From: Manis javanica
Taxonomy: Eukaryota; Chordata; Mammalia; Pholidota; Manidae
Assembly (NCBI RefSeq): GCF_040802235.1
Contig: NC_133167.1
Span: 13,818,501 to 13,882,500, forward strand
Length of the DNA: 64,000 nt
Direction: 5' to 3'
Shown here one piece after another: positions 12,496 to 62,725 of the stretch. The notes under the pieces were generated by a model. The model was not told where the DNA came from. It saw only the letters and a list, made by a program, of their open reading frames with translations, and ran no database searches. Within the stretch, counting starts at the first letter, position 1, and each line of letters starts with the position of its first letter. Made by a program: the position numbers and the translations under genes.

Positions 12496-13400
12496 GTTAC
12501 ACTTGATGGCATTCAGAGTAAAGGATTGTATTTGTACAGCACACTGAGGGGAAACTTTTAAACTTTCAAGGTAGCCCATAGGGAGTTCTCAGTGCCCCAG
12601 GGGTTCCAAGCAGCCTTAGAGGCTCCTGCCACTCCAGTCCCCTCTAAGCAACCCCCAGAGGTGAGGGGGGTCCAATTATTCATCACACCTGCAGTATCTG
12701 TATTGAAAAGCTGCTTTTAAACTCTGAAAAGCTCTTTTAAACTTTGATCCAAGTGTAATGAAATGTTCATATGGGTGTGAGTGACCCATATTACCTTTCC
12801 ATTCAGCTGTTGTAGGGCACATTGCCTAATCACCAAGATCATAATATTATTTATAAAAATAAGACGATATATTTGGACCAGTGGTAAAAGTAGGCATGCG
12901 TTTGGCTGTGCAAAACAGAAAACCAGATTCACCTTGGTTTTTTCGTTCTTGCATAACAGGGAGACTTGAGTTAAACAGTTACTGGCGTTGGTTTTGGTTT
13001 TATTGATGACAGGGTTTTGGATCGGTGTCCTTGGAAATTCCCTTGGCCTTGACTTTGTAGTTGAAAAATGGCCACAGAGAGCTCCAAAGTGACATGAAAT
13101 CCACCGTGCCAAGGCAGCACCATGCATGACCGTGTATCAGGAAGAAAACCTCCCAGAAGCCCCTACACAGACCCCTTATGTTTCATTGGCCAGAACTGGG
13201 CACTCTTAGCTGAGAGTAAGATGGAGAGAGCAAGTATCTGACCTATTTATGGGATGCCAGCCAGGGAGAGGGGGTCTTTGAGAAGCCACTTAGCAGTGTC
13301 TGGTTGCAGTGCAAAGCATTTCTGGTTATAACTTACAGGGGAAAGCAAGTCTTCATTTCCCAATATTATCCAAACAAACCAACTTTCTATTATTAAAATA

Positions 13401-13416
13401 TCTAAACAATTCTTTT
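13401..13416. repeat. Left target-site duplication of the L1/Ral-GEF element
   Basis: TCTAAACAATTCTTTT, identical to 19347-19362. The T-run that follows overlaps the end of the duplication, so the exact boundary is uncertain by a few T residues. Confidence 0.9.
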
Positions 13417-13424
13417 TTTTTTTT

Positions 13425-14310
13425 GGAGCCAGTTGTTAAATCTAAAAATTTATTTTTAAATTCATTGTATAAACTTATGATCAAATTAATGACAAAGGTA
13501 ATAAATACTCAAACTCAACACTCCCTGATTATTGTACGACATATAACTATGCTGCTGAGATTCTTTACCTAGATCACACCTGTATGTGAGAAATGCTTTA
13601 TTATGTGTACTGCCGCATCTCTTACCAATTCTGTTTAATGACACCGCATCACTGGCTGGAAATCAGCCATGGTGGGAGTATTTCTTATGTGAGATCTTCA
13701 TAAGATTATATATCAAAGATTTTATATCAATTCCACAGGAATTGGCATACACCACTTTGTAAAGCAAAAAAACACAAAACCCACAAAGATCAGGAGCTTT
13801 TCAGTTTGAACAGCTATATTGAACATTAAATCAACACATAGAGTGAGCACAGACACCCCCAAGGAATCTCAGCTGTGCATGGAAGGTGAAGTGATGGCAG
13901 GAAGGACATATGGGAAGGGGGGAGGGTGATTTTGAAATATTTCGAAGCTGCCAAAACACTGCAAGAAGAGTATAATGAACACTCATACATAGCCTTCCCC
14001 CAAATTCATTTTGCCACACTTACTTTAGCATTCTATTATATGTACACAAACAGATACAAATGTTTGTGTTTATTTTTCTAAGCCAGTAGAGTTGCAGACA
14101 TATGACATTTCCCCTGGGAAACTTAAGTGTGTTTCTTCTAGGAGCATTCTCTGCAAGACCTCAAGGCCATTATCACCCCCAAGACAGTCATTCTCATCAT
14201 TAAATAAAATTCAATCCAATAAAACACTGTTTCCTTCCCTCATTTTCTCTTTATAGCTTTAGAGTGACCCAGCTGGTCCTCTGGTTCAGGGTGTTTCACA
14301 AGTTTGCAGT
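13425..14310 (-). other. Probable 3'-transduced flank of the L1/Ral-GEF element
   Basis: This lies inside the duplication-bounded insertion, between the L1 ORF2 homology and the poly(A) tail, and is not L1 3' UTR of the young family. About 14070-14280 looks like an old L1M/HAL1-type fossil on the minus strand. The simplest reading is genomic sequence downstream of the source locus that was carried along by read-through transcription. Confidence 0.55.
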
Positions 14311-14873
14311 TAAAAGTGTTGGGTGGGGCTGTCCTCTTTAATTCCTCTCATGAGTGCTTTGTAGTTTTCAGGGTATAAGTCTTTCACTTCCTTGGTTAGG
14401 TTTATTCCTAGGTATTTTATTCTTTTTGATGCAATTATGAATGGAATTGTTTTCCTGATTTCTGTTTCTGCTAGCTCATCATTAGTGTATAGGAATCAAC
14501 AGATTTCTGTGTATTAATTTTGTATCCTGCAACTTTGCTGAATTCAGATATTAGATCTAGTAGTTTTGGAGTGGATTCTTAAGGGTTTTTTATATACAAT
14601 ATCATGTCATCTGCAAACAGGGACAGTTTGACTTCTTCTTTACCAATCTGGATGCCTTTTATTTCTTTGTGTTGTCTGATTGCTGTGGGTAGGACCTCCA
14701 GAACTATGATAAATAACAGTGGGGAGAATGGGCATCCTTGCCTTGTTCCCGATCTTAAAGGAAAAGCTCTTAGCTTCTCGCTGCTCAGTATAATGTTGGC
14801 CGTGGGCTTGTCATATATGGCTATTATTATGTTGAGGTACTTGCCCTCTATACCCATTTTGTTGAGAGTTTTT
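14311..14873 (-). mobile_element. L1 ORF2 fragment, reverse-transcriptase catalytic part
   Basis: An open stretch at 14857-14579 contains [12 protein letters not shown] and the catalytic [10 protein letters not shown] (FADD near 14610). Homology continues with stops to [17 protein letters not shown] and ends near 14311, so thumb and C-terminal parts are missing from this end. Confidence 0.88.
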
Positions 14874-16454
14874 TTTCTTAATTAATGAGTTTAATTCATT
14901 TCCATTTGTTGCAATTATTGTTATATTAGAACATTTCACAATTTATACTTATAAGGCTTTCTTTTTTTTCCTGCTTCCCACTAGATGGGAAGAATTCCTT
15001 TTTGCTAGTTTAAAAGTTATACATTTTGCTTTTGGCCTTCTAGTAGTTAGTAGTAACTGCTACAATAGTCCTTAATTTATTTTAAGACACATACTCAATT
15101 TTATTTTCCCTTATTTATTTCTCAAACTTGACAATATTCCTATTTGCTCTTACTTACTTGCCGTATCACTCACAGTGTCCCCTTATATGTCAGTCTGATT
15201 CTTGTTTGTTGGCAATCTGCTTCATTCTAGAAACATTTAGAAACTATCTTTCATGTTCTTATGTCTGCCTCTAATTAGGTGTAGGTGTTTTTTTTTCTTT
15301 GTTTGTTTGGTGTTGCATAAGCCTTTTCAAGCCAGGGCCTCTTGTCTTCCATTTTGCAAAGGTGAATCTTTACCCTTTCTTCAAACATTTCTTCATCTCC
15401 ATTTTTTCCCTTCTCCTAGAGTTCTTCTTTTCTGCATGTTAGCAGTTTCTATCCTCCATATTTCAAAGCATTTTAAAAAAGTATATTTTCCCCCTCTTTA
15501 TGATTTCCTGCTGCCTCTTGGGAGGGTTCTTCAATCTCACCCTCTCTTTCACTAATTTGCTCTTCAGCTGTTTCCATAATGCTATCCGCCCCAACTCTTG
15601 TATTCATGCTTTTCTTCAACTATTGTATTTTTCATGCTTAATATTTTTCCACCAGGTTCTTTTAAACAATTTCTTAATTTTTCTTCATATTATTAACATC
15701 TTCCTTTATTTCCTGAAAAACTTTTTGTGATGCTTATTTTAAATTCTGGATCCATTCATCTCAATAATTCTGCTTCAGATGGGATACATTCAGTTTCTCG
15801 TCTCTCTTTCATAAGGGATGTACTTCTCAGGTGTCTAGTTATTTCTGCCTGTGACTTCACAGTGCCATGATGGCCTTGCTGTCCTGTGCTTACTCCACTG
15901 ACACAGGAGTTCTGGGCTGTTGTTTCTAATTTCCTTGGTGATGTGGCTTTCAGAGAGAGAGAGCATCAAGGCATTTCAGGAGGAGTAGAAAGAGAAGAAT
16001 TTTAAAAAGCTTCCCTCCAACCAAGAGTATTTTAATCCTGGCTCTTCATTAGACTCATATGTGGAGATTTTTTAAATGGCGCCTTACCACAGACTAATAA
16101 ACCAGAATTCCTGGAGATAAGGCGCAGAGGTGAGTATTGATTTTCTCAACACTGCATTTTGCAAAAAAAAATCCAAACCTGGACCACTGTGAACAGTGTC
16201 TCTGCTGGCCCTGCCTCTACCTTCGCCATCTTCCAGATTATCAACAGGACAGCTGACGGAGCCTTTTGTAGCCAGAGCTAAATCAAATCACTCATCACTC
16301 AAAACCCTCCACTGCCTCCCTTCTCAGAGAAAAACAATGAGGGCCTATAAGACTGCAATACTGTGATTTATAAGAAAAATATGTATTGGTCATTCAGATC
16401 ACCAAAATACATCTCTCATATATATTTGGTCTTCATCCATGGTTCCTGACTCAC
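14874..16454 (-). mobile_element. Nested 1.58-kb insertion within the L1 reverse-transcriptase region
   Basis: TTTGTTGAGAGTTTTT occurs at 14858-14873 and 16455-16470. Removing the segment restores a continuous L1 ORF2. The left edge has a T-run, so this is probably an antisense L1-mediated insertion. Inside are an unrecognised AT-rich stretch, a MER5-like piece (about 16025-16190) and an L2-like piece (about 16235-16330). No gene was seen. Confidence 0.7.
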
Positions 16455-16470
16455 TTTGTTGAGAGTTTTT

Positions 16471-16948
16471 ATCATGAACGGATGCTGAATTTTGTCGAAT
16501 GCTTTTTCAGCATCAATGGGGATGATCATGTGGTTTCTGTCCTTTTGTTGATGTGGTGGGTGATGTTGATGGATTTTCGAATGCTGTACCATCCTTGCAT
16601 CCCTGGGATGAATCCCACTTGGTCATGATGGATGATCTTTTTGATGTATTTTTTAATTTGTTTTGCTAATATTTTGTTGAGTATTTTTGCATGTATGTTC
16701 ATCAGGGATATTGGTCTGTAATTTTCTTTTTTTGTGGTGTCTTTGCCTGGTTTTGGTATTAGAGTGATGTTGGCCTCGTAGAATGAGTTTGGGAGTATTC
16801 TACTTTTTGGAAAACTTTGAGGAGGATAGGTATTAATTAGGTCTTCACTAAATGTTTGATAAAATTCAGCAGTGAGACCATCTGATTTAAGGGTTTTGTT
16901 CTTAGGTAGTTTTTTGATTGCCAGTTCAATTTCCTTGCTGGTAATTGG
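16471..16948 (-). mobile_element. L1 ORF2 fragment, start of the reverse-transcriptase domain
   Basis: Minus-strand translation gives KEIELAIK, then [20 protein letters not shown] and [17 protein letters not shown], all classic L1 reverse-transcriptase landmarks. It continues at 14873 after the nested insertion. Confidence 0.85.
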
Positions 16949-17167
16949 TCAGATATGTCATTTATGAATATATTCTCCCATACTGTAGGATGGTTCTACT
17001 GATGGTGTCCTTTGCTGAATAGAAGATTTTCAGCTTGATATAGTCCCACTTGTTCATTTTTGCTTTTGTTTCCCTTGTCCAGGGAGATATGTTCATGAAG
17101 AAGCTGCTCATGTTTATGTCCAAGAGATTTTTTGGCTGGCGTATTATTAATTCTGGCCCTAGCCAGT
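16949..17167 (-). mobile_element. L1 ORF2 carboxyl-terminal fragment
   Basis: In minus sense it begins within a few bases of the Ral-GEF stop codon. It resembles the L1 ORF2 C-terminal segment that encodes a NKWDYIKLKSF-like stretch, with stops and frame slips. It lies 5' of the reverse-transcriptase fragment, the reverse of the normal order in L1. Confidence 0.65.
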
Positions 17168-17171
17168 AAGT

Positions 17172-19028
17172 TTAAGTGTGGCACCTGAAGAACTGCAACA
17201 GTCCCTTTCTGCTGGCTCTCTGGCCTGGGGGCTCCAGCTGGCAGGACAGGCTGTAGCTCTGCTCCTCATTCAGAAGCTCCACAGCCTGGAGAAAGGACTC
17301 GAAGCGCTCATCGGGCTCCAGGTCATACTGCCTGGCCACGTGCCTCTGCATCCTGATCTCGTGTAGGATGTTTGTGACTTCGTCATTATGTTCCGGGAGT
17401 TGGTCGATGGGCACATCATCCAGAATCAGTCCGAGGAAGGGGACCATGCCCCAATTCTCCTGGTAGTGGGATACCGTGGGGCCGCATCGCCATCGCAGCA
17501 ACAGGTACTTCCCCACCTCATGGAACCATCGCCTATCAGCCCTCTTGTCCATCCCTTTAAGTTTTTTAAACATGCGGAAGCTCTTCCAGGAAACATGTCC
17601 CCAGGTGCTTTGAAGACGACGTACAGCAGGGCACTGCAGGGCCAAGAGAATGGCATGGAGGGACGCCAAACTTGTGAAGGCCACACACTCCTTGGCCACC
17701 CGGATCCAGAACTCCACCACTCGGGCCCTGTCCTGGGCCATCATGCTTGGGGTCCCGAGGCAGGAAGTGGTGACCAACCTAACTATGGCTTCAAACTGCT
17801 TCAAGACCTTATGGATGGTGGGGGCTACGGGCTCATTGCTTACCTTCTCTGTCTGGAACCTTCTTCCCATCTGTGGCTTGTATGCAGTGTGGGCCTTGCA
17901 TTCATAATGGCTGACATTGATGAACAGCTCCGCACACATCAGGGTCAGCTGCTCAGCCACCAGGCAGTGGGGGAACTGCAGGATGGTGAGCAGCTCCTCC
18001 CTCGGCACATCCCAGGTGCTTGCGGCACAGGGGCTGGTGGGTGCTGGGCCCACCTCTGGCTCTGCCATGCCTGGTGCCATTCCGGCAGGTGCCCTGGGCG
18101 CTGGGCCCAAGGGCTCAAGGGGCTCCAGCTCAGGGCCTGAGACCACTCCTGGGGTGTCCCAGGGGCTCACGGCACAGAGTCTGGTGGGGTCCAGGCCCGC
18201 CTCTGGCTCTGCCATGCCTGGTGCCATTCCGGCAGGTGCTAAGGGCCCCAGTCCTGAGGGCTCATGGGGCTTCAGCTTGGGGCCTGGGCCCAGGGCTGAG
18301 GCCACTGCTGGGATGTCCTCTGGCTCTGCAGGGGCTGAAGCAGGTGACACCGGCCATATCTCCAGCACAGGGGTCTCACGGAGCTCCTGGCCAGGCTCTA
18401 GCCACGAAGCTGGGCCTCCCTGTGTCTCTGGAGCCAGCTGCATCTGCTGAGGTTCTTGCAGCTCTGCCACCGTGGTCCCCAGGTGCTCCTTCTGGCCCAA
18501 GTGGTGGAGGACTTGGCCCTCCAGGGTGGATGAATGCTGGCTGTCATGGAGGATGCTGGGCACATGCTTGTGCTCCCAGGCAAGGCACCTGGCCCGTCCC
18601 ATCCTGGGGATTCTCAGTTCCTTCTCTGGTGGCTCGTCATGCCCCCTGTCACATGCGGAGGCCATGAGGGCATCGCCCGTGACGCTCCCCAGCCATGACT
18701 GGGGGAGCCGCTGGTCCTTGGTCGGCTGGTCAGCATCCTCTGGAGGGAGTGTGAACTCAGGAATGCTCCGGCTGCTGTTTGGAGCTGGAGACACTCGTGC
18801 CGAGCGCTTTCTCCACTTCCTCCCCACGCCTGTCCAGGGAGCCCTGTGCCTGGGGACCTCAGTCCCATGGATAATTAGCTCATATTCAGGCTCGGGGCTC
18901 CTCGGGACACACGGACAGAGGCATTGGAGGAGGTCATTGAGCCAACGCCTGCAGCGAGCAGCAAGACTGTCCCTCTTGGCCTCCCTGACTCCCATGCCTT
19001 CAGAAGGTTCCACAAAACAAGACCGCAT
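17172..19028 (-). CDS. RalGDS/RGL-like guanine nucleotide exchange factor, intronless, inside an L1
   Basis: The 618-codon ORF is uninterrupted. The ATG (19028-19026) has A at -3 and an in-frame TGA 12 nt upstream, which fixes the start. Residues about 355-600 form a CDC25-type RasGEF domain of the RalGDS/RGL class: LVAEQLTLMCAELF, DRARVVEFWIRVAKEC, LASLHAILLALQ, GMVPFLGLILDDV and SYSLSCQLEPP are recognisable conserved blocks. The family job is to load GTP on Ral GTPases. Residues 1-50 are basic and Cys-rich (CLCPC at 36-40). Residues about 200-345 are Pro/Ala/Glu-rich with two 49-residue tandem units. No Ras-exchanger N-terminal (REM) module and no C-terminal Ras-association domain are visible. 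The ending LSCQLEP resembles RGL4/Rgr as I recall it. The lack of introns implies a retrocopy. The open frame suggests youth or selection. Whether it is expressed is unknown. Confidence 0.85.
   Translation of the reverse strand: MRSCFVEPSEGMGVREAKRDSLAARCRRWLNDLLQCLCPCVPRSPEPEYELIIHGTEVPRHRAPWTGVGRKWRKRSARVSPAPNSSRSIPEFTLPPEDADQPTKDQRLPQSWLGSVTGDALMASACDRGHDEPPEKELRIPRMGRARCLAWEHKHVPSILHDSQHSSTLEGQVLHHLGQKEHLGTTVAELQEPQQMQLAPETQGGPASWLEPGQELRETPVLEIWPVSPASAPAEPEDIPAVASALGPGPKLKPHEPSGLGPLAPAGMAPGMAEPEAGLDPTRLCAVSPWDTPGVVSGPELEPLEPLGPAPRAPAGMAPGMAEPEVGPAPTSPCAASTWDVPREELLTILQFPHCLVAEQLTLMCAELFINVSHYECKAHTAYKPQMGRRFQTEKVSNEPVAPTIHKVLKQFEAIVRLVTTSCLGTPSMMAQDRARVVEFWIRVAKECVAFTSLASLHAILLALQCPAVRRLQSTWGHVSWKSFRMFKKLKGMDKRADRRWFHEVGKYLLLRWRCGPTVSHYQENWGMVPFLGLILDDVPIDQLPEHNDEVTNILHEIRMQRHVARQYDLEPDERFESFLQAVELLNEEQSYSLSCQLEPPGQRASRKGLLQFFRCHT
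18007..18276 (-). repeat. Tandem repeat within the Ral-GEF linker
   Basis: Two units of about 123-147 bp (18007-18128 and 18154-18276) share an identical 39-bp core at 18054-18092 and 18201-18239, a period of 147 bp or 49 codons. In protein they give APAGMAPGMAEPE followed by a CA(V/A)S(P/T)WD(T/V)P motif. Confidence 0.85.
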
Positions 19029-19179
19029 GTTGCTCTGTCAAGCGCCTCCAGTCAAGTGAGCAGGACTGGGGTCTGCGGCCAGGAACTGGGTTCCGTCCGG
19101 GTCATAATTCACGTTCTACTGGGCGTGTCTTCAGTGACATCACTTCTTCAAGGGTCCATTTCCAGGGCCCCTCCCGCCT

Positions 19180-19346
19180 TTGTGAGGCGGTGGGTTCACG
19201 CTGGTGTGGATGTAGTCTGGCTGTTGTCCTGTATCTTCTGGTTTCTCTTTTAGGGATAGTTGTATTTGTTGTATTTTCAAAAATATATATGGTTTTGGGA
19301 GGAGATTCCCACTGTCCTACTCACGCCGCCATCTTGGCTCCGCCTC
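19180..19346 (-). promoter_or_regulatory. L1 5' UTR fragment (internal promoter) with YY1 site
   Basis: In minus sense it begins GAGGCGGAGCCAAGATGGCG, the standard start of mammalian L1 5' UTRs, and continues with L1 leader sequence for roughly 165 nt. AAGATGGCGGC (19335-19325) is a textbook YY1 site; in human L1 a YY1 site at the same place sets the transcription start. The rest of the L1 5' UTR is missing, so promoter strength is unknown. The 3' limit is approximate. Confidence 0.75.
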
Positions 19347-19362
19347 TCTAAACAATTCTTTT
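19347..19362. repeat. Right target-site duplication of the L1/Ral-GEF element
   Basis: TCTAAACAATTCTTTT, directly abutting the first bases (GAGGCGGAGCC on the minus strand) of the L1 5' UTR. Confidence 0.9.
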
Positions 19363-21085
19363 GAAAAAAAAGAGCTTCTGTAATTTCTACATCTGCCAAC
19401 TCTCTGTAGTTATTTGGCAGCTTGGGCTATGATGGTTTGCTCAGGTTTCTTAAAATAGGTACTCTCACTTTCCCTTCTGAAAGTGCCAGGATTCTTTCAA
19501 ATGCCTTCATGTCTGAGGTCCAGGAGCTCCTTTGTGAACTGCCTCTTGCCCACAGTCCATCTGTGCAAACTCCTTCACACAGGGACTCCTGGTGCATGTA
19601 CATCTCAACATCTTATTGAGTAGTCTTTGAGATATGAAATAATAGCATTTATTATTTTAAAGTATACATAAAATGTGTAAAATAATATCAAAATTAAAAT
19701 GTTAAAATACATTTTTATATTATATGCATGGGGTGGTAAATCAAATCAGCAGGCCCAATGTGGGCCTATAATGAAAACAGCATTCTCCCGCCTCGTCTTC
19801 ACCATTCTCCATTCCCACTTCCAGAGTCACTGATTTTCAACTCCTTTAGCTTTTTCTTTCTCTATTTATATCTGCATTTTAAATTACATGCTTGAATTAC
19901 TATTTCTTGACCTTTTTATTTTACATATCATCGGTTGGCTCTCTTCCAGGCAAAATGAGGATTTGACTCCCTCATATACCTCTGCACTGGTTTTTCTCCT
20001 CCTTTGTCATCCCCAATAATGATGCCACTTTCTTTTTTCAAAATGCTCTTTTTTACATAGCATGTTGTTCTTGTTTTATTGTTGAAAAATTTTCTCCTGT
20101 CTCCCTAGTCATCTCCCTCCTCCCATGTTACTCATTTATTAAATCATCTCCTGTTAAGGGTGTTCTTAAATGGTTAGTGAATCTTAGATGTCCATTTCTG
20201 ACACTAGATAGTTAACCAGCAGCTTTGTGCAAATAGACAAGGTTTACTCTTGGGGGGCCTCACTGCACTGTGGCAGATGGAGACCCTCAAATATTGGAAT
20301 CTGTAGGTCTTCTCTGCTGGGTCAGTTTCCCCAGAAAGGAATTCTCCATTCTCCTTTTGGGGCAATAGAAAATGGGCTGCTGCTCAGGATTATGGGAACC
20401 TAGGGTAGGAAGGGGACTATGGAAATTCTTTCAGTAGGAAGACTGTCATTCAATCTGTTTTAAAGGCACTTCACCCCATCCCCCTCTATTGAGCCTGGTG
20501 TTCCAGAGCTCAGAGGGTCTCTAGAATTTCCAAGAGCAAAGCTTTTTGTGCTTTATTCAGGTAGGGTGGACAAGCTGCAGGACAGGGAATCCGAGAATCT
20601 ACTCCTTAAAAAGATTTCCAACAACCCTGGTTTTGATTGATTTGGACTCTCCCTGACCCCTGACTTTAGAGAGGTGGTACCTTTCACGGCTTGGCCTTCC
20701 TGAGATTCTGCGATGGGCATCAGCTTGCTTCTCACTGGATTCTCCCCTTCAAGTCTCTCTACCACTAAGTTTCTGCTGCTTCTGTTCTGCCAAGTCAGTT
20801 ACCACTGGCCCATCTGTTTTCCATTTTTCATTTTCCATGCAAAATAGCATTGATATCACTTTCTCCCCTTATTCCTTCCCTGTTCTCTTTGATTCTTGCC
20901 AGTTTTATTCTTTTCTTATTTCAGAGGGTTTCATGAAGGAATAAAGATTAATGCAAGCATTCAATCTGTCATGTTTAACTGATAGTAAAAAATGTTTAAT
21001 TTTTAGGCATCCAGTTTTAACTGAGTATATGCCCATCTAGCTACTCATATATATGTGAGTGTATTTAGGGACAGGAAAAAAAAAA
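19363..21085. other. Intergenic, nothing recognised
   Basis: AT-rich DNA with no supported gene or repeat. Confidence 0.5.
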
Positions 21086-21625: not shown

Positions 21626-23895
21626 AACTACCTAAACTTTTCTGACACTTTTCTGCCAAGATTATACACCACTGACCTTGCTCAATTTATAATAAAACAT
21701 TTTCCTTACATTCCCGTGGTTTTCCCTTTCCACATTTACTTTGAGTCTGCACAATCTTTTCCTGATGCCTTTGTTAAAAGTCAAATGTTAATGTTATCAT
21801 AGCAGACGATTGTTTTTGTCTTCCCAGAATCTATTCACCCTGATTTTCCTTTGGGGAACCGCTTATGCTTTATTCTCTGTCTATGTGGTTCAAACAAACT
21901 GGCCAGCCCCACAAGATCCCCCGCTCTACAGCAGGGACACAGCCGCACAGCCCAGGCCAGACCAGCCAGGATAGCCCAATCTCTTGACCAAAGTGATGTG
22001 TTCAGGGGTGGACATGTGATCCAAGTCAGTTGTTCCATGAGACCCAGTCCTAAGGAAAGAATGGCTCTTTTTCCTCGGGGAACGCTGACTTGGTAGGACG
22101 TATGCCTGCAGCTGCTAGTGTCTATCTCACCACTGTGAAAGGAGGCTGAGAGTGAAGTCAGCACAGCAGAGAAAAGAGAAGATACAGTCAGAACTCAGTC
22201 ATGCTCTGTCATTTGAGCATCTGACTCCATGCCTGAATTCCTACTGTATCTATGTATACAATATGTATTTTTATACTTAAATACACATACACACAATTAT
22301 AAACTTAACTGTAAACTTCAAAGGAGAACAGATGGAACATTTCTGAGGGAGTGTTCAGATGGCACTTTAGAGAGATATTCAATAAGAATAATCATTAGAT
22401 CAACATACCTAATCTAGTACTCTCCTGTATTAATATCCAGAGTAGAACTATTTTGAATTTTCATGAAGCTAAGGCAAACAGATATTTGAGTAATTATGCA
22501 AATGTTTGTGTTACAGTGTCAATACTTTTCCAGTTACAGATCTAAACTCTGTTCTAGAGTTTTCTCCTGTAGGGTCGGACCCAGTTTTACAGTCACTCTA
22601 CAGCAACATAAAACAGGAGACATAAAATATATAAGGTCTCCTGGCTCAGAAGATCAGCAATACAGATTTTCTGAGTTAAAGGTGTCCGATAAACTTTAAT
22701 TTGGTCATGACAAAGAATGTGATTTGGAAGTAGACTTTTCTTGTTGGTCTCAGGAAAATTAAAGATGGCATGAAAGATTGAGATTGTCATCGCTTTCCAA
22801 TATTGTCTATTCAAGGTGCCAAGCCTATTTATGGCAGCACTGCGGCGGGCCTTCCAAAGCCATTCTCACCTCCCTTCACACCTGGGGCCAGGGGCTACAA
22901 ATCCAATCAGGCCGGTCTCCTATAATTGTAGAGCCTGGGAGCTAAGAATGATTTTCACACTTTTAAATGGTTGAACAAAGATCAGAAGAATAATATTTCA
23001 TGAAAATTATACAACATGCAAAATTGAATGGCCATAAAGTTGTAGTGGAACACTGCCATACTCATTCATTCATTTACATATTATCTGTGGGTGCTTTTGA
23101 ACTACAATGACAGTTTTGACAGAAACCAAATGGTCTGCAAAGTCTTAGACATTTGCTCGCTTAGTCTTTACCGAAAAAGTTTGAGGACCTCTGCTATTGA
23201 GATTGGAAAGTCAATACTCACTTTGCCAACCATGTAGCTGAGCATGACTCATGTGCCCCAGTCCAACCAATGAGATGTCAAGGCAAATTTGCAAGAGGGA
23301 TTCTGGGAAAGAGTATGGTTCCTAATAATGTAAAAGAGTGGACTCCTTTCTTCTGCTTCCTGCCTTAACACAGATGTATTATCTGGAGCCATGGTGGCAT
23401 TTTTTGCCACCATGAGATAAGCAGGGGATTGACAGCATTTCTATCTGACATATTATAGTTATGTTGGTCAACTATCAAATGCTTCCTGAGTCTCTGTAGT
23501 TGAAATTGATCTGAAGCAGTCTATAGTTTTATTAAACCTAGTCTCAACAACTATCACTGGGGAAAGAATAATTTAGACAGACACGTCTCATGGGAAACTT
23601 TCTGTTTTTTTAAGAATCTGATCCTGGTCATGTAACCACAGACTCCAATTGAGGGAATTTCAACATCAGCCTAAGTTAAATCTGCCAAGGTGTTTGGAGT
23701 GCAAAGGATATAAAAACAAATTTAAGCAGCTGTGTCCAAGGGAATAGTTTTGAGGCCACTCAGACAAGACAGGGAAGTGAGAGGAACTCACAACAAAATT
23801 TTACCCAAGCACATGGAGACCTTCCAGAGCTCAAACGTCACACACTGCACTCCCAGTGATTGGGAAATACCAGAGCTTCCCAGGTGGGGAGAAAG
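21626..23895. other. Intergenic, no gene recognised
   Basis: Possible MER-type relics at about 21880-22100 and 23220-23400. No coding support. Confidence 0.4.
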
Positions 23896-24173
23896 TGAAG
23901 ATTCCTGTGGCCAGGTTCTCACCTGGCCCTGGTTGGCTAGCTCACTACACATGTGTGGGCAATACATTGTTATTGACTATATAAAGAGCTCCGCCGAGTG
24001 CTCTGGGGGACACAGTGGCATGGCTGCAAGGCTGCAGGAGAGCAGAGATGAGACTGGAGTGGTGGCAGTGCTGAGGACAGAGACTGAAATGGCTGTTGGG
24101 GCAGAGGAGCCCAGAGGCGGAGACTGGCTTGCTGCATGCAGACTCGCTCTGAGTGGGCAGGATTCTAGTGATT
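23896..24173 (+). mobile_element. Inverted LTR fragment of an endogenous retrovirus
   Basis: This plus-sense copy of the LTR seen at 24182-24593 and 25673-26084 carries the TATA box CTATATAAAG near 23978. It lacks the LTR 3' end and meets the next LTR tail to tail. Confidence 0.7.
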
Positions 24174-24181
24174 GAATCCAC

Positions 24182-24593
24182 TGGCATAGGTTTCAGCCCC
24201 TGACAAGTTTGCTATGGATTCAGTGTGACCAAAGAAATGACAGTAGAATGTTCTTGGGGTGAAAGGGTTATTCCCAACTTTATTCCCACGGTGGCAGGTC
24301 AGTCACTAAAATCCTGTTCACCTAGAGCGAGTCTGCAGGCAGCAAGCCGGTGTCTGCCTCTGGGCCCCTCTGCCCACTCAGCCATCTTTTGACTCTGTCC
24401 TCGGTGCTGCCACCACTCCAGCCTCTGCTCTGCTCTACTGCAGCCTTGCAGCCCTGCCACCGTGTCACCCAGAGCACTGGGCAGAGCACTTTATATAGAG
24501 TCAATAGCAATGTATTGCCCACAGGTGTGCAGTGAGCTAGCCAACCACTGCCAGGTGAGAGTCCTGGCCGCAGGAACTCTCATTTTATCCACT
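24182..24593 (-). mobile_element. 3' LTR of a deleted endogenous retrovirus
   Basis: Close copy of 25673-26084 in the same (minus) sense, including the TATA-box region CTATATAAAG. It ends near GGGGCTGAAACC. Confidence 0.7.
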
Positions 24594-25672: not shown

Positions 25673-26084
25673 TGCCAATGGGTTTCAGCCCCGGGCAAGT
25701 TCACTATGGATTCAGTGTGATCAAAGAAATGACAGTAAAATGTTCTTGGAGTGAATGAGTTATACCCAATTTTGTTTCCATGGTGGCAGGTCAGTCACTA
25801 AAATCCTGTTCACCCAGAGCGAGTCGGCCTGCAGCAAGCCAGTCTCTGCCTCTGAGCCTCTCTGTCCCCGCAGTCGCCTTGGTCTCTGTCCTCAGCACTG
25901 CCACCACTCCAGCCTCTGCTCTGTTTTCCTGCAGCCTTACAGGCCCGCCACCATGTTGCCCACAGCACTGGGTGGAGCTCTTTATATAGAGTCAACAGCA
26001 ACGTATTGCCCACACGTGTATAGGGAGCGAGCCATCCAGGGCCAGGTGAGAATCCTGGCCACAGGAACTTCTATTTTATCCACA
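25673..26084 (-). mobile_element. 5' LTR of a deleted endogenous retrovirus
   Basis: 412 bp in minus sense, beginning TGTGGATAAAATAG and ending ACCCATTGGCA (TG...CA), with a TATA box on the minus strand near 25985. Strong similarity to 24182-24593 identifies the pair as LTRs. Confidence 0.7.
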
Positions 26085-29573: not shown

Positions 29574-29674
29574 TACAGAGTTGTACAACCATCACCACAA
29601 CCTAATTTTAGAACATTCTCATCCCCCAAAAAGATACCCCATGCCCATTAGCAGTTATTCACTTGACCTGGGAT
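29574..29674 (-). repeat. 101-bp duplicated L1M 3'-UTR segment, copy 1
   Basis: Differs from 30876-30976 at one base of 101. The sequence is from an old L1 3' end, antisense. Confidence 0.9.
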
Positions 29675-30080
29675 CGATATATTCCTCCTGTGAGGAATCT
29701 TACCCATTTCTGGCTAACCAGCCATCTTCCAGGGCCATACAGGGAGATATAAAGCTGGTAAGTGAGAGAAAAGTAATATTCTACGAAAAGGTTAGTTTTT
29801 CACTTCTTTGCAGATTTATGCCCCGTGGCTTCCAGGCCCAGAACTTGCTGGAGTTATCTTTACTACTTAGAAGAATTATGATACTTGGTAATTCCAAATA
29901 TGAGGCACAGGTTCTAGTAAAGGGCTGTAATTAGGAAGGAAGAAGAAAAGCTATAGAAGTAGCAGATGGAAAAAACATGAGAAGATTAAGTGTCAGACAG
30001 GGTTATTCTATTCAGTATTCCCCCATAACTCTATTTCTCTAATTTTCCTATAAAACTCTTCATCACTAATTTCACTAGCA

Positions 30081-30794: not shown

Positions 30795-31020
30795 ACTGAA
30801 ACAGCTTTATTGAGATATGATTCACAAATAAAGTTCACCCACCCGAAGTGTAGGGGTTAGGGGGCTTAGTATATTTACAGAGTTGTACAACCATCACCAC
30901 AACCTAATTTTAGAACATTTTCATCCCCCAAAAAGATACCCCATGCCCATTAGCAGTTATTCACTTGACCTGGGATTGCTACATTTTTCTACCAGTTTTT
31001 GAACATTTCTGAATCTTAGA
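30795..31020 (-). mobile_element. Old L1M 3' end, antisense, includes duplicated segment copy 2
   Basis: Contains the L1M phrase TTATTGAGATATGATTCACA and then GAGTTGTACAACCATCACCA. The part 30876-30976 is copied at 29574-29674. Confidence 0.8.
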
Positions 31021-32350: not shown

Positions 32351-33067
32351 GACGTTGCCCAGGACACATCACCGAAATAGCAATAGCCAGAGGGAAAAAA
32401 CAACAATGCGGGGGCTGCTCTCAGAAAAGGAAAACGTTCTCAGTCCCACTAAGACAGAGCTTGGTTCAGAATTGTTAAATCCCTTGCTCTAAGTGCATTT
32501 TTAATTCTACTCTTCTGTTTTGACACTTTGGTTTTCAGGGAGGATCCTTAGGGCAAAGTGATACAAACACGGGATCAGTTCTAGTCCACGTTAAACTTGA
32601 CTGAGGTTCAATCGCTTCATCTGCCAGAAGTCATAAATGGCAGACTATGAAGTCCCTTCTAGGTCTACACCTTGGCCTCGAGGACACCCGGCAGTCCCCC
32701 AGGTGAGCATCACAAGCCTTCATGGGGAGACTGCTAGAGGCCTGCTTTGCTGGGGCCAGGATCCAAACACACACAATTCACAGATTCTCCTATGGAGGAA
32801 CATCCTGGGGGCCGGCTATGGGTTGATGCAAACATCCTCCTTCCATATAAAACACTAAGGCACTAAGCTGAAGGTGTTTAGGAAAGGTTAGGTACAATAA
32901 CTAGAATGTAGGTATTACAGAAATCCTTTTGTTTTAAATATAAAAGAGCCGCTTCTGTGTTTGCCATCCTGGAGAAACCGGAGTGGTTATCTGGAAGTTG
33001 CCTTGTTTTTCTTCTTTACAAATACATATAAATTCTACTTGAACTAACTACAAATAGACATTTTATT

Positions 33068-33247
33068 GCTTAGTTTAAGAAATACAAAAATGGGAACTAG
33101 CAATCTTGGGCTAGGGGAAAAAAAACATCCAATCAATAAATTCTATTGATGTTGTCTTATCAGAGGAAAAGAAGACAGAGGGAACACACCCAAAACCTGT
33201 TTCCATAATCATCACAAACTTTGGTAATCTGCATCAGTGAGGTAGTT
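33068..33247 (+). repeat. 180-bp direct repeat, copy 1
   Basis: Matches 34479-34658 with about six differences and no gaps (roughly 97% identity). It does not match any transposable element I know. Confidence 0.9.
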
Positions 33248-34478
33248 TGGGAAGAGATGCAAAGTTACAGCTGTATGGACATTGCATCTACACTACACCT
33301 CCTAGGACAGAAATGTACCTTCTACTGAAGAGGAGGGATTTTACTTTTAGCCCAGGGCTCGCCAACATCCCTGAAGTACTGACACTGTTTTCGTAGTCTG
33401 GTGAAGGGTTTGCATAAATCATGCAGCATCCCCTTCCCCTGGTTCCAGTGGAGACAGAGCAAACCTGGCTGGTCTTCATAGGTACCCAAGCCTTAAGCTT
33501 CAATGTGAGCATAACAGACTTAGCTAGGCATAGACAATTTCCTACTTCTAGCTGCAGAACAAACAAGGTGACTCCACTTGCGCCCAGAGAACAAGGAAAA
33601 CAGGAGGAAGAAATGTCAAAATCACATAGCCTAGAAGCCCATTTTCTCAAGGCAACTAGCCAAGTTTCTCATACTGTTTTCTGGGGTTTTCTGTTGGTAC
33701 CATTTTGCTTTGCTGTTTAAATCTGATGAATAATTGGGCAGTAGATGAGAATCTTTAAGATAGATGAGATTGACATCAAACCAGACCAGTGAATACAATA
33801 TATGGCCCATATTTGTATGGTAGCAAAAATTCTTATCAAAAAATTCCTTTGCAATCTGTGGGACTTCATGGGACTTAAAACTATGCTTTGAGTTTATGAA
33901 AGAACTTCTCGTGTGGCTGGATTAGGACCTCTGGAGACCCTAAGAAAGGGAGAGATAAACTCCCCAATATGTACTTAAAAATAAGACTTTATGCATGCCA
34001 AAATTAAAGTTGTTGACATCTAGACTTTTTAAATGGCAAAGTTCTGGATAAATTCACTAGAGCAGGACTGTTCTCATTCTTTCAGTGTCTCTGCTTTTCT
34101 ACACGTGGGCTTTAGCTGCTAACTAGGCAATATGGCTGGTCTTAGATGGTCAGCTTGGCCCCCTCGCTCACCGAGTGGGAGGTTAAAATCCATACCTCTG
34201 CGAAATCACCAAAGACTATGTGTCATGAGCTTTTAATAAACGTCTCCAAAGGAATGGAATTCATGGGTTTTACAATAACTTACAAGTGTATACTTGTGGT
34301 TTTGGGCTTCAGAGCTTTATTCTGAAAGGTTGACCCCCGACCAGCTGGGGTGTAATTTTACATAAATGGTGCTCCTTTTGTACTCTTTCGGTACTGAGAA
34401 ATGCCAAAAAGAATTTATAGTTGAATTTTCTGCATCTCTTATACTAGGTTGTGTCTATTCCCTGCTTTGACAAAAATC

Positions 34479-34658
34479 GCTTAGTTTAAGAAATACAAAA
34501 ATGGGAACTAGCGATCTTGGGCTAGGGGAAAAAAAACATCCAATCAATGAATCCTATCGATGTTGTCTTATCAGAGGAAAAGAAGACAGAGGGAATACAC
34601 CCAAAACCTGTGTCCATAATCATCACAAACTTTGGTAATCTGCATCAGTGAGGTAGTT
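34479..34658 (+). repeat. 180-bp direct repeat, copy 2
   Basis: Second copy of the 33068-33247 unit, 1411 bp away. Similarity ends sharply on both sides. Confidence 0.9.
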
Positions 34659-36216: not shown

Positions 36217-36371
36217 TTACCTAAAAATGAGAGTTTCATGCTCTGCGATACCATACTTCCCTTTGTGTTCATCAAATAATTTCCTCAGCTCTTCCATGTA
36301 GGTCTGATGCAACTCCTCGATCTGCTCCGGGGTTGGGCGCAGACTCTGATGAACGGGGATTGGGTGGCCAA
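36217..36371 (-). CDS. MOGAT1: MOGAT1 coding exon 6 with stop codon
   Basis: The acceptor is TTTTTTGCAG at 36372-36381. The exon encodes [13 protein letters not shown], then [18 protein letters not shown] and [17 protein letters not shown], followed by TAA at 36219-36217. Residue 287 is His where human and mouse have Arg as I recall, a change that one CpG-type mutation could make. The frame stays open upstream to 36507, but that part is intron 5. Confidence 0.95.
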
Positions 36372-61590: not shown

Positions 61591-62725
61591 ACATGCGCAA
61601 ATGCACAGGCTCCGTTCTGAAACACATGAACTGCAAATTCCAAGGACAGAGACTGGACGTGCATGTTTATTAGACGCTTCTGCAGTAATTCCATTATTGC
61701 ACCCAGAGTTGAGAACCACTGATCTGGATATTCAAATTGTAAACCTCTATAATGCAATGAATTTATCATACTGTGTTACTATTGTGGCCTCAACAGCATA
61801 TAGACATACTTTTATAGCATACAAGCCATCTTTAGTCTTCAGAACGTCAGGTTCTCAGTAATTCCTCTCTCCTCTCAACCAATCCTTCATTTACTCCAAG
61901 AGCTGAGCGGACATCCAGGAACAAAAGTGCTCAGGTAAGCCGCCCTGCCCCAACTGGTGACTGGCCCGTATGCGTGTCTACATGGGCTTAACTTGGGAAC
62001 CCCCTAGATCACACGCCTGGATCGAATTCCGTACAGATAGAAGCCCTCAATCCAACCCAATGTTTGCTGCGGCCTTCCTGCAGAAAGGTACTTCTCTGCA
62101 TCCAGAAGATCTTAAACGCGTTAAAGCTCACGGCTAGTTGTTTTGAGGGTGGGAGAGGAAGGAATCAGATTTTAAATACTTGCCATTGGTTTTCCTTACA
62201 AGAATCGGAAATTCAAGGAACAAGTTCCCCAACTTTGAGGGGCTGGAGTGCAAGGCTCCACGGTTCCACTGGGACGTGGCCACATCTGGGGGTACACATT
62301 TGCTCAGATTCACTGAGTCGATACTTACAACCTATGCCTTTCATTGTAGGTAAAGTCTCACCTCGATTTTTAAAAATAGCACCGAGGAAAATAATGTTGG
62401 CAAACAGTTGTTCGCAACGAGGTTCACGTGGGGAGAGAAACGAAAGAGGAGAGTCTCAAGTTAGCTCCGAACTCTCGGTCTGCCCTGCCTGTCCTGGTTT
62501 ACAAGGGAGGCAGGGTCCGAAGGTCCAAGCACGTCCTTGGACAAGGACTGCCCGGGAGGCAGGCGACGGAGCCGTTTGCCCCGCGGTGTTTGGCTGGATC
62601 TTGCGCTGCCAGGAGCGCGCGGGGCCCTTACCCAGCAGCAGGAAAGACAGGACCCATTGCAGCACCGCCGCCGTCTGCAGCCGCCGCGCCAGCGGGATGT
62701 TGAGCGGCGCAAACTCGACCTTCAT
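36217..62725 (-). CDS. MOGAT1: MOGAT1, monoacylglycerol O-acyltransferase 1, complete six-exon gene
   Basis: The product is an ER membrane acyltransferase of the DGAT2 family that joins a fatty acyl group from acyl-CoA to monoacylglycerol, giving diacylglycerol for triglyceride synthesis. Six exons join at 62632-62725, 48947-49125, 48396-48600, 44063-44237, 43388-43587 and 36217-36371, giving 1008 nt, 335 codons plus TAA, the length I recall for human MOGAT1. Two hydrophobic segments lie at about residues 18-32 and 35-58. The family active-site motif HPHG is at residues 109-112 within [14 protein letters not shown] is at 187-191, [12 protein letters not shown] ends at 218, and FSFGENELF starts near 225. 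Every intron is GT-AG and phases match. No frameshift or stop was found, so the gene looks functional. MOGAT2 and DGAT2 are less likely because the N-terminus [10 protein letters not shown] and the C-terminal region match MOGAT1 as I remember it. Confidence 0.95.
36795..37255 (+). mobile_element. Old L1 (L1ME-type) 3' end
   Basis: Ends in the L1ME-like phrase TGGATTTTCTACAATGAGAA followed by an A-rich stretch. Confidence 0.6.
37735..37815. repeat. CA/TA-rich simple repeat
   Basis: A CA run followed by TA-rich low-complexity sequence. Confidence 0.7.
39780..40270 (-). mobile_element. Old L1M/HAL1-type fragment, antisense
   Basis: Shows the antisense pattern with CCAGTTTTAAACATTTTATA and GCTCAGCTGTCCCAATGACA, shared in style with 14070-14280. 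Confidence 0.5.
40490..40615 (+). mobile_element. MIR SINE
   Basis: A degenerate MIR core ending AACCTCAGGCTCAGAGACAA. Confidence 0.5.
41819..42172 (+). mobile_element. Young L1 3' end with target-site duplication
   Basis: 5'-truncated L1 3' UTR ending AATGATACCTTAATTAAAAAAA, flanked by ATGTTAAAGAAA at 41807-41818 and 42173-42184. The last part is the reverse complement of the 42999 and 60012 copies. It contains a G-rich tract at 41888-41935. Confidence 0.85.
42236..42296. repeat. TA/TG microsatellite
   Basis: A long TA run with a short GTGTGTGT block, about 50 bp past the young L1. Confidence 0.95.
42999..43155 (-). mobile_element. Young L1 3' end, antisense, with target-site duplication
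   Basis: About 157 bp, starting with T-runs and AAATTAAGGTATCATTGATA. ATTCAGCAGCAGTATTC (42982-42998) recurs with one change at 43156-43172. Confidence 0.85.
43388..43587 (-). CDS. MOGAT1: MOGAT1 coding exon 5 (residues 218-285)
   Basis: The acceptor is ATTTGCAG and the donor GTACGT; the exon is 200 nt. It encodes the conserved [16 protein letters not shown] block, the [11 protein letters not shown] segment and the [17 protein letters not shown] segment, ending in KPIHTV. All are strong MOGAT-family landmarks. Confidence 0.95.
43588..44062 (-). other. MOGAT1: MOGAT1 intron 4 (475 bp)
   Basis: Donor GTAAGT, acceptor ATTTGCAG. No repeat or gene was recognised. Confidence 0.9.
44063..44237 (-). 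CDS. MOGAT1: MOGAT1 coding exon 4 (residues 160-218)
   Basis: I read this short exon directly on the minus strand. The acceptor is TTCCCAAAG, the donor GTAAGT, and the length 175 nt. It encodes [20 protein letters not shown] and then the conserved [20 protein letters not shown] and [14 protein letters not shown] blocks. GGAEE replaces the GGAKE that I recall for human. There is no internal stop. Confidence 0.93.
45478..45812 (+). mobile_element. MLT1A-like MaLR LTR
   Basis: Contains AAATTCACATGTTGAAACCC, then GAGGTGGGGCCTCTAAGGGG, then CCTCCAGAACCATGAGAAAT and a CAGCCCAAACTAAGACA end. Confidence 0.8.
46255..46560 (+). mobile_element. LINE-2 fragment
   Basis: Contains L2-type sequence such as GATGATCTTTCTAACGCATA and TCCATGGCTCACCTACAAGA. 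Confidence 0.5.
48396..48600 (-). CDS. MOGAT1: MOGAT1 coding exon 3, carries the HPHG active-site motif
   Basis: The acceptor is CACTGTAG and the donor GTAAGT; the exon is 205 nt and ends in phase 1. It encodes [15 protein letters not shown] followed by GFHPHG, the DGAT2-family catalytic motif. Position 96 is Cys, where human and mouse MOGAT1 have Gln as I recall. The exon ends in FREYLMSS. Confidence 0.95.
48601..48946 (-). other. MOGAT1: MOGAT1 intron 2 (346 bp)
   Basis: Donor GTGAGT, acceptor CACTGTAG. Nothing else was recognised in it. Confidence 0.9.
48947..49125 (-). CDS. MOGAT1: MOGAT1 coding exon 2 (residues 32-91)
   Basis: The acceptor is TTTTTTACAG and the exon begins CACAGG, giving A-Q-V-C-I-G at the join, similar to my memory of the mouse protein. 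A nearer CACAG is out of phase and was rejected. The exon encodes the second membrane segment ([20 protein letters not shown]) and the conserved [14 protein letters not shown] block. The donor is GTGAGT directly after the His codon. The exon is 179 nt. Confidence 0.95.
49340..49520 (+). mobile_element. MIR SINE
   Basis: Contains GAGAGGTTAAATGAATTGCT and related MIR core sequence. Confidence 0.55.
49795..50407 (+). mobile_element. LTR-headed poly(A) retroposon (SINE-R-like)
   Basis: About 613 bp, beginning with retroviral U3-like sequence (GCAGGGGGGCCATCAGGTGA) homologous to the start of the 28841-29569 LTR for about 235 bp. It then diverges and ends GATCAATAAATATGAGAGAT plus an A tail. AAAATACATGAAGTAAG is exactly repeated at 49778-49794 and 50408-50424. 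The tail and 17-bp duplication show L1-mediated retroposition, not retroviral integration. It has no ORF, so it is nonautonomous. Confidence 0.8.
51790..51970 (-). mobile_element. MIR SINE
   Basis: Contains TTTACCTGTGAAATGGGCTA and GTGCCTGGCACAGAGCAAGT; the reverse-complement core orientation is inferred. Confidence 0.55.
52860..53275 (-). mobile_element. Old L1M 3' region, antisense
   Basis: Shows the pattern ATTGAGGTGAAATTCACATA through ATTTCATATAAATAGAATGA to TTGTTGCATGTATCAGTACT. Confidence 0.8.
53500..53985 (+). mobile_element. Old L1M/HAL1-type 3' end interrupted by a microsatellite
   Basis: Contains GACAATGGGATTGTGATTAT and ends AGAATTTTCAAAATTAAAAG. Same family as 56070 and 59690. 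Confidence 0.5.
53809..53868. repeat. GT then GA microsatellite
   Basis: About 11 GT units followed by about 15 GA units, with GGATGT between them. Confidence 0.95.
54850..55020 (+). mobile_element. Old L1ME-type 3' end
   Basis: Contains AGTAATTATCTCTGGATGAG and then TTTTACATTTTCCAATTTTT. Confidence 0.5.
56070..56330 (+). mobile_element. Old L1M/HAL1-type 3' end
   Basis: Contains AAACATACACTGAAGTACTT and ACCATGTCTGCAACTTACTC, the sense form of the phrase seen antisense at 14070-14280. A short GT/G run lies inside. Confidence 0.55.
56440..58080 (+). mobile_element. L1 (L1M-type) ORF2 end and 3' UTR, 1.6 kb
   Basis: The order is that of L1 ORF2: GACAGCCTTGTATACTGGCA, CAATGGGATAGGACAGAATC, then AAAAATGGGCCAAGATTTAA, and a 3' UTR with GCTATGTTCACTCTGTTAAT. 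Only short broken ORFs remain. Confidence 0.85.
58339..58996 (+). mobile_element. L1 3' end with target-site duplication
   Basis: Sense L1 3' end. AAGACTGGATGACAGGT (58322-58338) recurs with one change at 58997-59013. Confidence 0.8.
59690..60580 (+). mobile_element. Old L1M/HAL1-type 3' end split by a young L1
   Basis: Homology resumes after 60345 with AATGGGTGTATGGGAGTTCA and CTGTATGTTTGAAATCTCTC. Confidence 0.5.
60012..60345 (-). mobile_element. Young L1 3' end, antisense
   Basis: AAATTAAGGTATCATTGATA, then CATTCACCCATATTATCAAG, through TATACTCCACAAATGAGA. Possible imperfect duplication of AAAAATATTTAA at the edges. Confidence 0.8.
60720..60875 (-). mobile_element. MIR SINE
   Basis: Contains CATGTGACCTTGAGCAATTT and ACCTCTCAGGGTTGCTGTGT; orientation is inferred from the core order. 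Confidence 0.6.
61140..61370 (-). mobile_element. MIR SINE
   Basis: Contains TGACTAGCTGTGTGACTTCA, TATAGGGTTGTTGTAAAGAT and AGTACTTGGCACATACTAAG in the standard MIR order. Confidence 0.65.
61528..61590. repeat. TA microsatellite
   Basis: About 25 TA units followed by ACACACATAC. Confidence 0.95.

Follow-up and report, generated by a model that had tools for sequence, protein, structure and literature searches.

A pangolin retrocopy with an L1 5' UTR start in front of an intact RGL4-like coding sequence

Introduction

In human long interspersed element 1 (L1, LINE-1), a splice donor (G98U99) in the first part of the 5' untranslated region (5' UTR) is used, and RNAs spliced at this site have been retrotransposed as SpIREs (PMC5860796). 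The element described here lies on the minus strand of a 64,000-nucleotide stretch of Manis javanica DNA (contig NC_133167.1, positions 13,818,501 to 13,882,500; hereafter the window), where it occupies positions 13417-19346 and places the start of an L1 5' UTR in front of an intact open reading frame (ORF) of the RGL4-like, ral-GDS-related kind. Like the SpIREs, it would have arisen from an RNA that was spliced at a donor early in the L1 5' UTR and then retrotransposed. The acceptors described for SpIREs lie within L1 (PMC5860796), whereas the acceptor of the pangolin element would be a host gene, with no working L1 ORF after it.

Human chimeras of mRNA and L1 that carry duplications and tails have been reported, and in 6 of 17 the gene part ends at a splice donor (PMC13174262). 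These chimeric LINE-1/mRNA insertions (Law and Burns 2026) share with the pangolin element a single insertion of L1 together with spliced mRNA, a target duplication and an A tail (PMC13174262). Some of their junctions fall at splice sites (PMC13174262), while the donor of the pangolin element is deduced from proteins. In the 17 human cases, a gene or long non-coding RNA, represented mostly by first exons, stands 5' of a mostly near full-length L1 (PMC13174262); the order in the pangolin element is the opposite, with the L1 leader on the 5' side and a whole coding sequence after it.

Processed retrogenes made by L1 in trans have in common with the element the intronless copy, the target duplication and the A tail. 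One retrocopy, PABP3, has conserved upstream sequence, which suggests a longer parent transcript (PMC5408686). Retrocopies of the PABP3 type carry upstream promoter sequence, whereas the 5' sequence of the pangolin element is L1 5' UTR and not the promoter of the parent gene. AMAC1 was carried by SVA-mediated 3' transduction and multiplied on several chromosomes (cited in PMC9917352). It is likewise a host gene on a retroposon, but AMAC1 was amplified, and amplification of the pangolin element is not shown.

The pangolin element belongs to a known general kind of chimeric retrogene but is an unusual example, with an L1 start in front and a complete, intact coding sequence behind it. The explanation favoured here, with slightly better than even confidence, is that L1 made a single retrocopy of a spliced and chimeric RNA polymerase II transcript composed of L1 5' UTR, RGL4-like mRNA and a flank bearing fossil L1 sequence. 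Retrocopies usually arrive without a promoter; in this case a host coding sequence arrived complete and intact, with an L1 start region in front of it, in one insertion. If the junction of leader and gene is a splice, the donor in the L1 5' UTR, to which defective L1 copies are attributed in human, can also act as the end of a first exon and give a host retrogene a portable start site. The element also adds a retrocopy to the large RGL4-like family of pangolins.

Ends of the insertion

The element is bracketed by a target-site duplication, TCTAAACAATTCTTTT, with copies at 19347-19362, on its 5' side as read on the minus strand, and at 13401-13416, on its 3' side; the two are identical at 16/16 positions. 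An exact 16-mer was common to random pairs of 40-base pieces from the same window in only 3 of 199,620 trials, a figure obtained before counting the exact placement of the copies at both ends of the element. One copy adjoins an L1-type 5' start (19346, minus strand) and the other a run of 12 T (13413-13424). Read on the minus strand, this run is a poly(A) tail of 12 A, four of them common with the target duplication, and an AATAAA polyadenylation signal (13449-13454, minus strand) lies 23 nucleotides upstream of it. The L1 endonuclease has the consensus TT|AAAA; the sense-strand cut site at 19363/19362, TC|AAAA, is one base off. Because the duplication is present at both ends, the tail is accompanied by AATAAA and the cut site is near the L1 endonuclease consensus, 13417-19346 is taken as one L1-mediated insertion.

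These results bear out part of the original prediction, which had reported a perfect 16-bp duplication and a poly(A) tail from the letters alone. It had also proposed that a single RNA of L1 5' UTR, Ral guanine nucleotide exchange factor (Ral-GEF) coding sequence, L1 pieces and 3' flank was inserted by L1-type machinery, and this too was upheld.

The Ral-GEF open reading frame

The gene part is an intronless, intact RGL4-like (ral-GDS-related) ORF with a RasGEF domain, 618 codons long and without a stop (17172-19028, minus strand); we take its family to be linked to RGL4. The RasGEF (CDC25) catalytic domain was found at residues 357-539 (Pfam PF00617, 91 bits, profile positions 2-159 of 181), and the closest PDB relative of the ORF is RGL2 (E value 1.7e-21). 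With the RGL4/ral-GDS-related family the ORF shares this domain, an MRSC N-terminus (as in 11 of the 48 pangolin relatives) and a similar C terminus; it differs from the family in being intronless and in its distance from the nearest Manis protein, to which it is at most 73% identical over 244 columns. The gene had been called intact at the outset, which holds for the reading frame; its product is a putative Ral-GEF.

The loss of introns was judged from the protein models of the 62 relatives that the search returned. At a first site, after ...KQ, translation continues into an intron in 4 of the 62 models (P0021, P0030, P0031 and P0046, recognised by pattern), and P0036 is a likely further case by eye. 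Six models stop with R* at a second site, ...DEEE|SY, among them P0015 and one lynx protein, and three read on at a third. The ORF in the window is unbroken at the sites of these intron signatures and is therefore a retrocopy of a spliced mRNA.

In a phylogeny of the domain, for which 42 of the 59 aligned rows were used (five of them flagged as long branches), the window copy groups with P0015 and P0043, both of Manis javanica, with support of 100/99. P0015, the nearest relative, is itself a model that stops at an intron. Conservation was counted over the 28 of 48 pangolin proteins that cover at least 85% of the domain. Among family-conserved columns the window copy keeps 36 of 40 and changes four, and it changes 91 of 215 variable columns. 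When each relative was left out in turn, 24 of 28 changed fewer than four conserved columns, and the count of the window copy equals or exceeds that of 25 of 28. Most of the constraint thus appears to be retained in the ORF, for which the youth of the copy would be an equally good explanation.

An AlphaFold model has a mean pLDDT of 62, and most values beyond about residue 175 of the domain are below 50, so its C-terminal part is unreliable. Using this weak model, Foldseek ranked RGL2/Rlf first (E value 2e-7), with a TM score of only 0.39. The structure alignment held 34 rows, drawn from the 62 proteins and the window copy.

The proline-rich region of the ORF contains a tandem duplication, 18010-18154 and 18157-18301, with a spacing of 147 bp and 80% identity. 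Similar repeats in the proline-rich region seem to vary in number among the Manis relatives.

The L1 leader and its junction with the gene

The leader begins with GAGGCGGAGCCAAGATGGCGGC, presumably a YY1-type motif, and this is its sole copy in the window at up to three mismatches. In a translated search with the leader, all eight matches were predicted proteins, read here as L1 5' UTR, and the earlier claim of a true L1 5' UTR start is thereby substantiated. The L1 part is about 160-175 nucleotides long, running from 19346 to between 19184 and 19172; with the boundary at the candidate splice donor it would comprise 172 nucleotides (19175-19346, minus strand). It is followed by a leader of about 146 nucleotides that is not L1 and contains several short upstream ORFs (19029-19174, minus strand), and then by the ATG. 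The gene had been placed at the position of L1 ORF1, which is not literally the case, because the L1 5' UTR is short and is succeeded by a gene leader. The patterns of the L1 5' UTR had no match in viral or bacterial contig collections; with the Ral-GEF pattern, one pattern match was obtained in viral contigs and none was confirmed.

Identity with the eight relatives is high to codon 19205. In the ten codons to 19175, the numbers of relatives identical to the window are 0, 0, 7, 8, 0, 8, 1, 0, 2 and 7 out of 8. At codon 19172 the window matches none of the eight, all of which have Lys followed by Ile-Gln. The residue before this Lys-Ile-Gln is Gly in seven and Asp in one, which fits a change of GGT to GAT. 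When nucleotides were compared, with the most favourable codon chosen for every residue, the match was clear as far as codon 19187 and partial to 19175; from 19169 onward, in an ungapped comparison, it was overall no improvement on random codons. The junction zone (19172-19184, minus strand) is compatible with a GGT-AAG (G|GT-AAG) splice donor, a plausible 5' splice site, which would place the GT-AAG-type donor of L1 at 19175|19174. Laurasiatherian L1 presumably has GGGGGTAAGATAC at the junction position.

The simplest reading of these data would be that RNA splicing connected the leader with the gene, as has been inferred for several human mRNA/L1 chimeras of the opposite order (PMC13174262). 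Transcription of the source would have begun in the L1 5' UTR, and a splice, most likely from a donor of this UTR near +172, would have linked the RNA to the leader of an RGL4-like gene of pangolin. The introns of the gene would have been spliced out, and the RNA would have continued through a 3' flank containing old pieces of L1 and ended after an ordinary AATAAA signal. The whole RNA would then have been reverse-transcribed by L1 proteins in trans, and its insertion about 17 kb downstream of MOGAT1 would have produced the 16-bp duplication and the A tail. The copy retains the L1 start motif and an ORF of 618 intact codons, so it could in principle start its own transcription. Splicing at the 5' junction and use of the L1 promoter, like any present expression or function of the copy, we infer from the sequence.

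The main rival to splicing is template switching. The first template of the L1 reverse transcriptase (RT) would have been a spliced RGL4-like mRNA together with its 3' flank; close to the 5' end of this mRNA the enzyme would have jumped to the 5' UTR of an L1 RNA and copied on to the L1 5' end. The L1 leader would then be a by-product and not the promoter of the source RNA. Template switching is listed as a route to L1 chimeras, there from L1 RNA to another RNA (PMC13174262). The L1 sequence of the element reaches the L1 5' end, as expected from copying to the end, and the position of the junction is known to within about 13 nucleotides only. However, the junction zone contains the position of the deduced splice donor, which a random jump would rarely hit, and template switching is regarded as a serious but rather unlikely alternative.

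Several points weigh against the spliced, chimeric transcript as a whole. The match to L1 is patchy before the junction, its boundary has the same latitude of about 13 nucleotides, and one isolated later codon (Pro) agrees with 8/8 relatives in a gapped comparison and not in an ungapped one. The donor was deduced from protein sequences and not from DNA, and GGT-AAG is one of several spellings that these would allow. The evidence for the splice covers the donor side and the inserted copy, and this explanation does not account for the junction between the Ral-GEF gene and the fossil L1 sequence near 17150. The nearest relative is only 73% identical over the 244 aligned columns, too little to name it as the parent gene, and the change of four of 40 conserved columns does not demonstrate purifying selection after the insertion.

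The 3' part of the element

The 3' part of the element is read here as the fossil-bearing flank of the source transcript. Downstream of the ORF, all on the minus strand, stand a fossil C-terminal fragment of L1 ORF2 (16953-17150, corresponding to about residues 985-1046 of human ORF2p, with one frame change and approximate ends), a fossil RT fragment (16471-16948, residues 453-589 and a little more, with one frame change) and further RT fragments (14330-14873, residues 615-711 and 756-796, with one in-frame stop, one frame change and an approximate lower end). About 0.9 kb of flank without a family match follows (13425-14329, minus strand). Between the second and third of these regions, the RT fossil is interrupted by a nested insertion of 1.58 kb (14874-16452, minus strand), which the original prediction had not noticed. 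It has a flanking duplication of its own, at 16453-16470 and 14856-14873 (17/18 positions, 94%, with 16 exact in a row), the latter copy being overlapped by the RT fragments at 14330-14873. The nested insertion may have been in the source already, or may have arrived after the main insertion.

In transcript order, the human ORF2p equivalents therefore run 985-1046, 453-589, then the nested insertion, 615-711 and 756-796. The C-terminal piece is ahead of the RT, and the 3' part is therefore not a simple deletion of one L1. As read here, the frame changes at least three times within the ORF2 pieces and is broken once by a stop codon; neither defect occurs in the Ral-GEF ORF. The earlier report of ORF2 pieces is thus correct in that RT sequence is present, but these are shuffled, frameshifted fossils and not an ORF2 lacking its endonuclease. 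A deletion derivative of L1 with ORF1 and endonuclease replaced by the gene, the form in which the element had originally been proposed, was rejected because the ORF2 fragments are not collinear. No ORF1 remnant or L1 3' UTR was recognised in the Pfam and Rfam scans, which were made without a DNA-level repeat library. Pfam gave no family at cut-off in a scan of separate pieces, nor in six frames of the nested insertion or three of the tail (best DUF7813, E value 0.045, below cut-off), and Rfam gave none at gathering score over 13300-19450. Near the 3' end, a scan for bacterial promoters yielded nothing informative.

The nested insertion points to a history of several steps, in the source or in the copy, as would be expected if the element had been assembled stepwise at the locus, an old L1 being later invaded or joined by a Ral-GEF retrocopy. 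Against such an assembly, a single exact outer duplication encloses L1 leader, gene, fossils and tail, no duplication or poly(A) tail peculiar to the Ral-GEF part was seen, and the disordered L1 fragments show that the gene has not taken the place of parts of one L1. Local assembly of this kind, together with an error of the genome assembly, is considered very improbable. Later insertion of the Ral-GEF sequence into a standing L1 was rejected, as no tail or duplication belonging to it was seen.

It was also considered that the element might be a second-generation copy, an earlier L1-leader/Ral-GEF retrocopy having been transcribed through L1 fossils and 0.9 kb of flank and retrotransposed again with 3' transduction. 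Such a history would suit the intronless gene and the flank of about 3.7 kb after it, which is apparently unprocessed and has an ordinary poly(A) signal at its end, and the L1 start motif is retained. Near 17150, however, neither an internal poly(A) tract nor another duplication that would mark a first-generation 3' end was noticed, and no second locus with the junction turned up in searches that reached no mammalian DNA; a second-generation copy seems improbable. The most far-reaching form of this idea would be a self-transcribing, gene-carrying, non-autonomous pangolin retroposon, with spliced L1 5' UTR and full, still coding Ral-GEF sequence, moved by L1 and represented here by a second-generation copy with 3.7 kb of former flank. 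This is held to be highly improbable, and the single retrocopy of a spliced, chimeric transcript is preferred.

Relatives in pangolins and other mammals

Relatives of the ORF were sought among 7,988 scored candidates, those sharing most words with it, and within this set no match was more than 71% identical to the window ORF. The 48 top-ranked of the 62 matches are all proteins of Manis javanica or M. pentadactyla, named as uncharacterized, 'ral-GDS-related protein-like' or 'ral guanine nucleotide dissociation stimulator-like', apart from P0047, whose name is unrelated. The next ten come from horse, donkey, two seals and lynx, at 34-40% identity, and are followed by four salmonid RGL1 proteins at 27%. 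The original prediction had mentioned many annotated RalGDS-like loci in some mammals, and the 48 pangolin clusters, with those of horse, donkey, two seals and lynx, agree with this.

The element had been offered as the explanation of these loci. A contig is given for 33 M. javanica clusters, of which 24 are on one contig of 101 Mb, P0015 and P0043 included, and nine are distributed over five others (identical contig sizes were counted as one contig, and since isoforms are among the clusters, the figures do not count genes). Several clusters of the 101-Mb contig show intron signatures, and P0039, one of the nine elsewhere, also ends at an intron site. On these grounds the proposal that the element gave rise to the numerous loci of pangolins was rejected as unsupported. 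Because most clusters share one contig and several have intron signatures, the pangolin RGL4-like expansion looks like mainly ordinary duplication of an intron-bearing gene. Nothing observed shows a spreading L1-linked family, in data that included no mammalian genome search. In the one search that spanned the L1/gene junction, none of the eight leader matches crossed it, which is weak evidence, as the reading frame is short. No publication on a pangolin RGL4-like family was found among the best-ranked results from one open-licence literature collection.

The locus and the neighbouring gene

The right half of the window is occupied by the exons of MOGAT1, which is encoded on the minus strand; its start codon is at 62725 and its last exon ends at 36220, as determined by tblastn with MOGAT1 proteins of Manis javanica and other species. 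The element lies about 17 kb downstream of this gene, on the same strand. Exon 1, with translated leader, is 97.4% identical over 117 positions to M. javanica MOGAT1 (P0097), and further exons match the same protein at 69/69 positions in one and at 98% over 61 in a third. Two more matches are lower, at 78% over 92 and 84% over 74 positions, because, as read here, the alignments overrun the exon ends. Outside the window, a MOGAT1 isoform model of water buffalo (P0117) has a terminal reverse-transcriptase domain (PF00078) that looks like a retroelement-derived 3' exon.

No tRNA was found in the window by ARAGORN. Repeats, both direct and inverted, with 76-85% identity are present at 23885-24592 and 25678-26084. 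Two pairs of direct repeats with 96% identity, 33065-33247 with 34476-34658 and 29574-29683 with 30876-30985, are possibly recent duplications or young repeats.

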